Origin: a virus
Virus record (IMG/VR): IMGVR_UViG_3300003323_000575
Location: 2,235-37,062 of that record
Direction: 5' to 3' (one strand)
Length of the DNA: 34,828 bases
Within the stretch, counting starts at the first letter, position 1. Each line of letters starts with the position of its first letter. Shown piece by piece: positions 24,389 to 33,726 of the stretch. The translations under genes and the position numbers were made by a program. The notes under the pieces were generated by a model. That model saw only the letters and a list, made by a program, of their open reading frames with translations, was not told the origin of the DNA and did no database searches.

Positions 24389-24832
24389 TTAAAGAACATG
24401 AGCAAGTAGAGCAGCCTTGTAAGCTAGTGCTGCTTCTTGTGCAGTTTTAAAACTTCCTAGATAGTTTAATCGTCTATTTATTCGAATGTGGGCTACCCAC
24501 TTCCTATTCTTTTTGTGATAAGTTACACCTTTATAGCCAGAAGTGTTGCTGGCTATTAAACCCTGAAGCAGGTGATTGGTCGAGTGGGTAACAAACTGCA
24601 AGTTATTCTTTGTGTTATTTAAACCGTTTTCGTCCTTATGGTGGTTGATTAAACCAGGAGGCGGTGGGTTTACAATGTTGTGCATTAATATAGTTGTAGG
24701 CCCCTTTTCCGTTTGAACCGAAGCTGCGGCATAACCAGAGCTTAGGTAGAACCAACTATATTTTTTAACCTTATCAAAATCCTCGTCGTCAATGAGAGCC
24801 TTCTTATCTTGAGTTAGATTTACCTCTTTCAT
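24389..24832 (-). CDS. HNH-AP2 homing endonuclease-type protein
   Basis: Predicted free-standing DNA endonuclease that spreads its own gene. Seen: 147 residues; an N-terminal LTQDKKALIDDEDFDKVKKY module; an HNH core with H51, H64/H65 and N70-N77 (LMHNIVN, NHHKDENGLNNTKNNL); and a C-terminal AP2-type DNA-binding module (TSGYKGVTYHKKNRKWVAHI … LGSFKTAQEAALAY). It starts inside the stop of the polymerase gene (ATGA) and is visibly A+T-richer than its neighbours, suggesting separate acquisition. Its N-terminus is nearly the same as that of the HNH gene at 26499 (MKEVNLTQ versus MKEINLTQ), so the two are probably recent relatives. Catalytic residues look intact. Confidence 0.88.
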   Translation of the reverse strand: MKEVNLTQDKKALIDDEDFDKVKKYSWFYLSSGYAAASVQTEKGPTTILMHNIVNPPPPGLINHHKDENGLNNTKNNLQFVTHSTNHLLQGLIASNTSGYKGVTYHKKNRKWVAHIRINRRLNYLGSFKTAQEAALAYKAALLAHVL

Positions 24833-26502
24833 ATTTTACCAATCAAACTTTTTTCACTAAACGCCCAATCAGTGCCATACGTACCTTCGAAGGGGATAGT
24901 AATTGGAAGTCCCGCGATGATAAGCTCGTTGTTAAAGTATTGCCGTATCTTGTTAATCGCCCAGCGGGTATCTTCGACGCGGAATTGTCCGATGAGCGAG
25001 TCATGAACCGTGTGAAGAGGCTGGATACGGATTTTCTGATTGGAGTCGTAATTGTCTGGATCTGTCCAAAGTTTGTGTAAGGCAAGAACGGTTGCATAGG
25101 TGGTGTTTTCTTGTGGTTCGTTTGCGAGTGCTTGGCCGAGGATTTCGTTGTAGCGACCGAAGAATGTGCGGGTGTGGCCGGAGGCGGAGGATAACTTTGG
25201 AGGGTAGGGTTGTTTGCGGAGTTTGTCGGTAGTAGCGGCGTGCCATTTTTCAGGATGATAGGCGGCGTAGACCGCTTTTCGGAAGGCTTCAACGTCCGAA
25301 CGGGACATGTTAATCTTGCCCTCGGATTGGGTGAAGATGATGTCGGATAGGAGGTCGACGCCCATGAGGTAGCAGATACCCCAGATGCCGACTTTACACA
25401 TAAAATAGTCGAAGTCTTCCTTTTTTATCTCCTTTAGCAGGACTTTAATTTCATCCCGAGACTTCCCTTTAAGTGAATCGTTTCCATGTCGTAACATATA
25501 GGCGAGACGCTGAGCTGGTTTAATCTTCGCCCTAAGGTCGTCAAGCATTGTTGGTTCACCAAGTTTGTAAAGATGTGCTCCCACTGTCCACCCGTCAGCA
25601 CCACTAAGGTCACATTGGAAGAGGTAGTATCCGTCATCAGCAATGAACAAATCCCGCATACCCTCGTGCAAAGGGTGCCCGACGGGCCGTAGTGGATTCT
25701 CCTGGGGAATCGTTTGTAGATTGTAACCAGAGCCGGTAGGCGAGGTGTAACATGTAAGGCGTCCGGTCTCAGTTCCGACAAGGTTATATCCACACCGTAC
25801 TCGTCCATCACCATCCGCAGAGATTTCCAACATCTGAGCGCGGGTCCGTAACTCAGCAATCGAATAAGCCAGGTCGACTGAGGATTTTGCTTTTTCCGTG
25901 ATGGGTTTATGGGCTCCGAGGACCAGGAGAGCCTCGGCGTTCGCTGTCCGGGAGCGCTCCGACTTTTCCTTGTGCTTATCTTTTTTGTCATATTGGATAG
26001 GGAGTTTGAGTTCGTCGTAGAGGTAGGTTTTGAATTCGGGCGAGCGGATGTTTAGAGATTTTTCGAGGACGACCGAGATGTAACCGAGCTGCGTGGGTGA
26101 TAGATTGTCCGGAGCGGCGAGATAGTGCATAATGACATCGTGATGGAGGATGTAGTCCGCTTTGACCTTAGAACTATCCCGCTTATGGCACATGATTTCT
26201 TTAGCCATTGTCCGAATGGCGGTTTTGTCGGTGGTTCCAAGCCCACGGCCAGATAGAACGTCCAGTTGATACTGGAGGCCGTGGATTTGGTCTTTAACCA
26301 CGGCGAGGCGCTTCTTGGCGAGGGGGGTGTCGTATCGGATTCCTCGCAACTCCATGGAAAGGAGCGGGTTGAGAAGGTCCATGTTGAAGCGGTAGTGGGC
26401 ACGAGCGCGGTCTTTGACCCATTTTTCGAGCTTCTCGTTGATTTCATAGGTTACACTGGAATCTTTGCAGCAGTAGGTATGGAATTTTTCTAAGTCGGTC
26501 AT
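24829..26502 (-). CDS. DNA polymerase A, C-terminal (polymerase) fragment
   Basis: Catalytic half of the replicative family A polymerase. Seen: 557 residues; exonuclease motif III YCCKD (residues 10-14) at the very start; a thumb-like helical region; TETGRLT (244-250); motif A CDLSGADG with D298; motif B K370-x3-W374-x3-Y378; and motif C VHD (H500, D501). Exonuclease motifs I and II are not here but in the gene at 26927-28039, so the protein begins within the exonuclease domain. Trp374 stands where E. coli Pol I has Phe762, and Tyr378 is followed by Leu rather than Gly. It begins in an ATGA overlap with the intervening HNH gene and ends in one with the next HNH gene. The two halves must assemble to restore proofreading. 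Confidence 0.9.
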   Translation of the reverse strand: MTDLEKFHTYCCKDSSVTYEINEKLEKWVKDRARAHYRFNMDLLNPLLSMELRGIRYDTPLAKKRLAVVKDQIHGLQYQLDVLSGRGLGTTDKTAIRTMAKEIMCHKRDSSKVKADYILHHDVIMHYLAAPDNLSPTQLGYISVVLEKSLNIRSPEFKTYLYDELKLPIQYDKKDKHKEKSERSRTANAEALLVLGAHKPITEKAKSSVDLAYSIAELRTRAQMLEISADGDGRVRCGYNLVGTETGRLTCYTSPTGSGYNLQTIPQENPLRPVGHPLHEGMRDLFIADDGYYLFQCDLSGADGWTVGAHLYKLGEPTMLDDLRAKIKPAQRLAYMLRHGNDSLKGKSRDEIKVLLKEIKKEDFDYFMCKVGIWGICYLMGVDLLSDIIFTQSEGKINMSRSDVEAFRKAVYAAYHPEKWHAATTDKLRKQPYPPKLSSASGHTRTFFGRYNEILGQALANEPQENTTYATVLALHKLWTDPDNYDSNQKIRIQPLHTVHDSLIGQFRVEDTRWAINKIRQYFNNELIIAGLPITIPFEGTYGTDWAFSEKSLIGKI

Positions 26503-26930
26503 AAGGATTTTACGCTTAAATATCTCGCTTTTGTTCGTTCGTAGCAGTCCTGTGCTTCTTGTTTGGAGTCAAAAACTTTATCCAAAACTCGAACCCCTTT
26601 TACGGTAAGTTGTGCTCGCCATTTTCCATTCCAGGTTAGAGAAGCGCCACGCTCTTTAGGTTGACGATTTAGCGCATTTCTTGATTTGTTCGAGCTTAAA
26701 AGATTCTCCCTTCGGTTGTTTAGTCCATTACCGTCCTCATGTTCAACTAGATCCGGCCAGCTACCTGTGATAATGGAAACGATTAATTGGTGCATCCTAA
26801 CTGTTTTATCACCAATTTTTGTCTCGGCGTAACCATTATTATAGCACCAACTATAGTTCGTAGTTAGCCAATCGTAGTCTTGGTCATCGACAATGGTGGA
26901 AAAGCCTTGAGTTAGGTTTATTTCTTTCAT
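26499..26930 (-). CDS. HNH homing endonuclease-type protein splitting the polymerase
   Basis: Seen: 143 residues; an N-terminal LTQGFSTIVDDQDYDWL module; an HNH core with H47, H64, N69 and N76 (RMHQLIV, EHEDGNGLNNRRENL); and a C-terminal AP2-like module that is shorter and more diverged (LTWNGKWRAQLTV, FDSKQEAQDCYERTK). ATGA overlaps exist at both ends: its start lies in the stop of the UDG/exonuclease gene, and its stop overlaps the start of the polymerase fragment. It therefore sits between exonuclease motifs II and III of the polymerase. The gene is A+T-richer than its surroundings. It resembles the HNH gene at 24389. It may be a homing gene fixed at this site. Confidence 0.87.
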   Translation of the reverse strand: MKEINLTQGFSTIVDDQDYDWLTTNYSWCYNNGYAETKIGDKTVRMHQLIVSIITGSWPDLVEHEDGNGLNNRRENLLSSNKSRNALNRQPKERGASLTWNGKWRAQLTVKGVRVLDKVFDSKQEAQDCYERTKARYLSVKSL

Positions 26931-32926: not shown

Positions 32927-33274
32927 TTATACTCCTGACAGCAAATCTGGGTTGTTGAAGTCGCCGTAGGGCGAGGCCGCGATTGACTGCATCATTGCAC
33001 CGACGTGCATAACGGTTACGAGGGCGGTGAGTTCGTGTCGGTCAAAACGCGCGAAGCGTTCGAGGAGTTCCTTTTCGAGGAGTTGCTGGAGGGCGGGTTG
33101 GTCCCGCCAACCACCAGCCGCAAGGACAGGTTTAACGATTTCTTGGACCTCCTTTACGATATCCTGAGCGCGGTCAAGGAGGAGGTCGACCGGGGATTTG
33201 GGTGGTTGCTTGGGACGGAATTTGTCGATTGCGGCGTTAATGAAGCGGTTACGGGAGTCGTCTTGGATACTCAT
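32927..33274 (-). CDS. Small helical protein, unknown function
   Basis: Seen: 115 residues, almost entirely helix-forming (RNRFINAAIDKFRPKQ, LLLDRAQDIVKEVQEIVKPV, ALQQLLEKELLERFARFDRH) with a final hydrophobic helix (LTALVTVMHVGAMMQSIAA). No motif recognised. Its start overlaps the stop of the upstream HNH gene (ATGA), so before that insertion it may have followed the helicase gene directly. A role as helicase partner or loader is conceivable from position, nothing more. Confidence 0.55.
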   Translation of the reverse strand: MSIQDDSRNRFINAAIDKFRPKQPPKSPVDLLLDRAQDIVKEVQEIVKPVLAAGGWRDQPALQQLLEKELLERFARFDRHELTALVTVMHVGAMMQSIAASPYGDFNNPDLLSGV

Positions 33275-33726
33275 TTATTTGGGAAGTTAAGGACTGCGAA
33301 TTCACCGAATAGTTCAATAGCTTTTTTGTCACGTGCTCTGGCTGCATTCTCGGCGTTGTGAAAGCAACCTAAACTGTAAACTTTGTTGTCTTTTCGGATA
33401 CTGGCCTGCCAAGGTTTCTTAAAGTTTGGCCCTGTGGCATAAACACCAATGTAGCCGCTACTCGCCCTTCTTTGCATCTTTCTGTTAAAAAGATTTTGTT
33501 GAGTAGTGGCATAGCGGAGGTTATTACGTTGGAGGTTGTGTATGTTTCTATCTTCGTGGTCGACTATAAAACCTACTTTTCTAGGTAAAACCTCGTATTT
33601 TAAGTCAACCACTCCTTTGTAAAACACTCTACCACCAGCACAGTTAGGTGGTCGGTCTAAAAATTGAGGAGGAAAGTCGTCGTCAAACAAAACGACTGCT
33701 CCACATTTACACTTCCGTTCAATCAT
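33271..33726 (-). CDS. HNH-AP2 homing endonuclease-type protein between helicase and partner
   Basis: Seen: 151 residues. The N-terminus differs from the other three copies and has a CKCG motif (residues 6-9) followed by FDDDFPPQFLDRPP. The HNH-like core is VDHEDRNIHNLQRNNLRYAT (about 55-74), and the AP2-like C-terminus is SGYIGVYATGPNFKKPWQAS … LGCFHNAENAARARDKKAIE. A first catalytic His is not obvious upstream of VDHE. ATGA overlaps occur at both ends, with the helicase stop and with the next gene's start. It is A+T-rich compared with flanking genes. It may target the helicase/partner junction. Confidence 0.83.
   Translation of the reverse strand: MIERKCKCGAVVLFDDDFPPQFLDRPPNCAGGRVFYKGVVDLKYEVLPRKVGFIVDHEDRNIHNLQRNNLRYATTQQNLFNRKMQRRASSGYIGVYATGPNFKKPWQASIRKDNKVYSLGCFHNAENAARARDKKAIELFGEFAVLNFPNK

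Follow-up and report, generated by a model that had tools for sequence, protein, structure and literature searches.

Four HNH endonuclease genes (HNH1 to HNH4) lie in the 34,828-base stretch of DNA analysed here (the window), which makes up most of a 37,062-base record of an uncultivated virus (IMG/VR, IMGVR_UViG_3300003323_000575). It is probable that they are free-standing homing-endonuclease genes, translationally coupled in the early operon of an uncultivated tailed phage, and that one of them, HNH2, caused the fission of a DNA polymerase gene. The early genes, including all four HNH genes and their neighbours, are carried by the minus strand, to which all window coordinates below refer. 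A longer record (L006, handle G001; 47,519 bases), 100% identical to the window across the 19 kb compared, contains three further HNH genes (HNH5, HNH6 and HNH7).

HNH2 (26930-26499; Pfam HNH_3, 3.6e-6) separates two polymerase genes. Upstream lies UDG-polN (26927..28039), encoding a uracil-DNA glycosylase (UDG) domain (Pfam UDG, 2.3e-16) and exonuclease motifs I and II; downstream lies polC (24829..26502), the C-terminal polymerase half with exonuclease motif III and the PolA domain (Pfam DNA_pol_A, 1.1e-10). Relatives with an empty site (L007, L008, L009 and, next out, L019-L025) possess one intact protein of about 800-925 amino acids, in which the uracil-DNA glycosylase domain is followed by the 3'-5' exonuclease and the PolA polymerase. 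The two adjacent window genes correspond to this one gene, the N half to residues ~1-370 and the C half to residues ~376-917 of the L008 protein. UDG-polN is 50-54% identical to the N-terminal part of the fused L007 and L008 proteins; polC shares 62% identity with the fused L008 protein over residues 376-917, and the value over the C half is 62% for L007, L008 and L009 alike. At the break point, L008 reads EPYYKEDRESESHETFWTYCCKDS, where the window has EPYWKDERIQEEDKR followed by a stop in one half and MTDLEKFHTYCCKDS in the other. Exonuclease and polymerase motifs checked by eye in the alignment are all kept in the window halves. In a tree of 68 polymerases, built by a quick method with Shimodaira-Hasegawa-like approximate likelihood ratio (SH-aLRT) support only, the window groups with L007 and L008 inside successively larger sets of fused proteins, at three levels, all of them starred. 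The fused L008 protein, for which profile and fold comparisons both give the Klenow fragment as the closest solved structure, was modelled with AlphaFold (predicted local distance difference test, pLDDT, 91); the break falls in a short loop (372-374) before the helix of exonuclease motif III (375-397).

Since the polymerase is fused in the nearest relatives, the place now taken by HNH2 would have been coding sequence; we infer that HNH2 split it just before exonuclease motif III and that both of its ATGA junctions are new. The initial annotation had regarded the polymerase halves as meeting at a pre-existing stop/start junction and had named intact fused polymerase in empty-site relatives as the outcome that speaks against this. 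That outcome is what L007, L008, L009 and L019-L025 show, and for the polymerase the idea had to be abandoned.

Each of HNH1 to HNH4 sits at a gene boundary with zero upstream spacer and starts on the stop codon of the preceding gene, as the initial annotation had described: ATGA three times and GTGA once. HNH1 (24832-24389), an HNH/AP2 endonuclease gene located after polC (Pfam AP2, PF00847, 2.7e-8; HNH_3, 2.8e-4 in the genome search), starts within the polC stop (ATGA, ...AAAATATGAAAG), and HNH2 within that of UDG-polN (ATGA, ...AAGCGATGAAAG). HNH3 (30076-29603; HNH_3/AP2 type, Pfam HNH_3 2.3e-7) starts within the stop of a ParB-N/DNA methylase fusion gene (30073..31575; Pfam N6_N4_Mtase 1.1e-14, ParB_N 4.9e-9) in a GTGA overlap, ...TTCAAGTGAAG. 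HNH4 (33726-33271; HNH_3-like) starts within the stop of a RecD-like helicase gene (33723..34828, extending beyond the window end; Pfam AAA_30, UvrD_C_2) in an ATGA overlap, ...AATGTATGATTG. Reading of the junctions also bore out that two of the genes end in ATGA: HNH2 overlaps polC (ATG at 26502; ...CCTTATGACC), and HNH4 overlaps a gene for 115 amino acids (32927..33274; ...AAATAAATGAGT). The distance of 428 nucleotides (nt) from the HNH2 ATG to the polC ATG was reproduced. HNH3 ends in TAAAATG, with a 1-nt gap to the next gene, and 52 nt separate the end of HNH1 from the gene that follows it. The likening of the flanking ATGA repeats to a 4-bp duplication does not hold, and a transposon with a 4-bp target duplication was rejected: HNH1 and HNH3 have no downstream ATGA, so the repeat is not found at every insert, and start and stop codons explain the repeats.

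Among the additional genes of the longer record, HNH6 is bordered by ATGA at both ends, HNH7 has 1-nt overlaps (TAATG/TAGTG) at both ends and HNH5 has neither. HNH7 (L011 1533-2024) is located between the small and large terminase genes, where two other small genes are found in the phage of L008. Upstream of HNH6, two long open reading frames (ORFs) overlap in different frames (L010 4247-3696 and 3937-3614, minus strand; L012 17459-17971 and 17616-17981); the pair is kept in the relative L008 and is possibly a real long out-of-frame overlap.

At the methylase site the relatives give a different picture from that at the polymerase. A homologue of the gene for 63 amino acids downstream of HNH3 (29410..29601) directly overlaps the methylase stop both in L008 (GTGA, AAGTGATT) and in L024 (ATGA). 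In these two relatives the site is intact and free of any HNH gene; it is occupied in the window by HNH3 and in L007 by an HNH gene with ATGA on both sides. Since HNH-less relatives possess the same overlap, comparison of these sequences supports the view that HNH3 sits in a stop/start overlap that already existed. The suggestion that such genes insert at coupled stop/start junctions therefore stands for the methylase, where empty junctions exist, and fails for the polymerase, where the relatives are fused.

We then asked whether the overlaps exceed chance expectation. Junctions were counted with one simple gene caller throughout, except HNH6, which was read by hand (the caller picked another upstream frame). 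Eight of the 14 junctions of the seven HNH genes are 4-nt overlaps, as against 3/41 other same-strand junctions of the same genome (Fisher p=0.0003). The base rate is 20-25% (37/149 junctions in close relatives, 217/1064 in distant ones), and the difference from the close relatives is also significant (p=0.015). The excess of overlaps at HNH genes in the window genome is thus beyond chance. A search with a 4-sequence HNH alignment as query gave 79 loci with related HNH genes in other viruses, and here 22/114 junctions of HNH genes and 150/614 of other genes were 4-nt overlaps (p=0.28). HNH genes in general show no preference for stop/start overlaps over these 79 loci, and a rule of this kind, implied by the initial annotation, is ruled out. 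The overlap pattern is therefore a trait of the insert set of the window genome, not of the HNH family.

In composition the HNH genes are foreign. Their G+C content at third codon positions (GC3) is 0.32-0.38 in six of seven cases and 0.46 in HNH7, most phage genes having about 0.6. GC3 is also low over the final 300 nt of the genes immediately upstream of HNH genes (0.38-0.48 in 4/7; 0.48-0.81 in other genes; p=0.0017 for all seven), with dips at window positions 33723-34030, 30073-30500 and 26927-27400. Such dips might represent co-conversion tracts, which is suggestive only: the polN dip is not present in relatives devoid of HNH2, but the methylase dip is found in empty relatives too, and the dips were for that reason rejected as proof of co-conversion. 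An IMG/VR search for relatives of HNH2 found only the same phage. A recent hop of HNH1 as the origin of HNH2 was considered, 15/18 of their first nucleotides being alike, and rejected, as identity is only 30% between the proteins and 45% between the genes. L009, with a fused polymerase, and L006, with a split one, come from the same metagenome (3300003321); here an empty target coexists with an HNH2 carrier.

Breaks in this polymerase were surveyed in about 80 relatives plus the window, and three split points were identified. Site A, the HNH2 site, is located after exonuclease motif II and ahead of motif III; site B follows motif III closely; site C belongs to the polymerase domain, where it is flanked by the NLQN-type motif and motif A. 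In the AlphaFold model of the L008 protein the three sites fall into loops at ~372-374, 398-401 and 625-651, respectively. The tree requires three changes at site A, two at site B and five at site C, ten in total, which points to about ten independent splits among the relatives, three of them at the HNH2 site. Besides the window, the events at site A concern L076 and a clade of seven including Caulobacter phage Kuura. No description of a split at site A was found in a literature search, which left out most subscription journals. The halves are separated by HNH genes (window, L078, L081), by a dCMP deaminase gene and others (L064), by small ORFs of unknown kind or by nothing. HNH genes inside or at most 10 nt from the polymerase occur in 4/19 split rows and 1/49 fused ones, which are small numbers. 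In L076 the halves meet at the HNH2 site in a direct ATGA, an arrangement known from one contig, in which one wrongly assembled base could be enough to imitate it, and an HNH gene follows the split polymerase via a GTGA overlap, like HNH1 after polC.

At another loop than the HNH2 site, the halves of L092 meet in one ATGA (GAAGAAGAATGAAGCTC), and in L048 an ORF of 63 amino acids, belonging to no Pfam family, stands between the halves with ATGA at both ends (GAAGAAGAATGACC...ATCGTCGATGAAACTC). Removed from ATG to ATG, this insert would leave the arrangement of L092, and either state may be the earlier one. As the L048 insert is no HNH gene, exchange from ATGA to ATGA is not peculiar to HNH genes. 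The geometry proposed in the initial annotation, by which removal of a cassette from ATG to ATG restores an ATGA overlap, does exist in nature (L076 at the HNH2 site, L092 as compared with L048), but it is not found in the window lineage, and in L048 it concerns a non-HNH insert. The PolA domain near site C also carries in-frame intein-like inserts in L065 (C-half ORF 4024-6564) and L085 (ORF 7932-11366), starting with CIGGDS or CLSGDT and ending with VHN; both inteins and gene splits thus apparently affect this stretch. The C half is frameshifted in L064 (5721-5784) and whole in the near-identical L065, which reflects either assembly error or decay.

The arrangement in the window suggests how an insertion could be tolerated. 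A ribosome finishing the upstream gene would re-initiate on the endonuclease gene and, where the far end is again ATGA, once more on the next gene. Inserted in this way, the endonuclease gene would need no promoter or ribosome-binding site of its own and would leave its neighbour unsilenced. Judged from the sequences, the endonuclease probably spreads by cutting genomes devoid of it, followed by recombinational copying. HNH2 would have broken the frame of a single UDG-exonuclease-PolA gene at the loop that directly precedes exonuclease motif III; the stop of the N-terminal half would come from the leading ATGA of HNH2 and the start of the C-terminal half from its trailing ATGA. The two halves presumably assemble into a working enzyme, because their motifs are kept and because there is precedent in the split phage proteins NrdA and gp43.

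Several observations weigh against this account. The HNH_3 matches of HNH1 and HNH4 are below the Pfam cut-off (22.3 bits for HNH4, at 1.1e-4, the cut-off being 24.8), and only HNH2 and HNH3 exceed it in the profile search. The AP2 domain, of DNA-binding type, is above the cut-off in HNH1 and below it in HNH3; in the Pfam search it was not recognisable in HNH2, and HNH4 was also without a match. The causal role of HNH2 is deduced from the comparison, and the split of the polymerase gene may be older than the arrival of HNH2. A frameshift at the loop would then have happened to create ATGA, and HNH2 would have entered this junction afterwards. Polymerase halves that are split with no HNH gene between them do occur in other lineages (L076 at the same loop, L092 at another loop, L083 with a 10-nt gap and no insert), L079 is split with no HNH gene at the place where L081, its sister, carries one, and HNH3 is itself a case of overlap invasion. 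Against this order of events, all close relatives (L007, L008, L009, L019-L025) are fused and no split-but-empty intermediate is known in the lineage; we consider it rather unlikely.

A better candidate, though one to which we would give somewhat less than even chances, is that any small ORF bordered by ATGA enters and leaves packed operons harmlessly, HNH genes being one kind of passenger. The L048 ORF with its ATGA ends, placed exactly at the single ATGA of L092, fits this well, as do the other small genes found in L008 at the HNH6 and HNH7 boundaries and the overall frequency of 4-nt overlaps in relatives; the concentration of overlaps at HNH genes in the window genome (8/14), with few elsewhere (3/41), does not. 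Such exchange is compatible with fission by a coupled endonuclease gene, the explanation we prefer. Splicing would make the polymerase whole at the level of RNA if HNH2 were encoded by a group I intron or a remnant of one, and polymerase genes of phages are indeed interrupted by introns with HNH genes, for instance in CB7, where splicing was shown (PMC7344957). Here the insert is coding over its entire length from ATG to ATG, there is no Rfam match to a group I intron core or RNA family at E up to 1 in 23000-34828, and the intron, very improbable on these grounds, was ruled out. A split intein restoring one polymerase chain by protein splicing is hardly conceivable: intein-like inserts exist in the same polymerase family (L065, L085), but the window halves extend only ~10 residues past the aligned region (EEDKR before the stop, MTDL at the start), and tails of this length, leaving no room for intein halves, rule it out.

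Comparable arrangements are known from other phages. The T4 nrdA/mobE junction, UAAUGA, is suggestive of translational coupling, and in Aeh1 MobE lies inside nrdA, an essential gene that is split with both chains still working (PMC2988022). As with T4 and Aeh1 MobE, a free-standing HNH gene starts here on the upstream stop (PMC2988022); the host gene differs, the HNH family is HNH_3/AP2 and ATGA is present at both insert ends. In Aeromonas phages 25 and 44RR, gene 43, which codes for the DNA polymerase, is likewise divided in two, and a homing endonuclease may or may not lie between the parts; the split gp43 of phage 25 is active, and there too the endonuclease could be either the cause of the split or a later arrival (PMC2988022). 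Those polymerases are of family B and the endonuclease is a GIY-YIG Seg enzyme, unlike the family A polymerase with fused uracil-DNA glycosylase described here. In MEP401/MEP402-type phages a family A polymerase is reported as two ORFs that enclose a small ORF of unknown kind, similar to site C. There it is the polymerase domain that is interrupted, not the region before exonuclease motif III, and no HNH gene is reported between the halves (PMC10580990). In CB7, too, HNH genes interrupt the phage DNA polymerase gene (PMC7344957), but as spliced introns, and no intron is detectable here.

More speculatively, and with clear doubts on our part, an ATGA-bordered gene may act as a portable stop/restart module: inserted in phase, it would in one step end the upstream fragment and restart the downstream one, providing a third way into an essential gene besides introns and inteins. 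If this were true, repeated arrivals and losses would explain the roughly ten UDG-PolA breaks at three loops. A few T4-like phages already provide examples of genes split by homing endonucleases, but with the order of events left unsettled. One polymerase family now offers a natural series of fused genes, split genes with nothing in between, split genes with HNH and split genes with unrelated genes, broken at loops mapped on a structure. With this series it can be tested if the split is a consequence of the arrival of the endonuclease or precedes it, and if re-initiation keeps up the supply of both polymerase halves.

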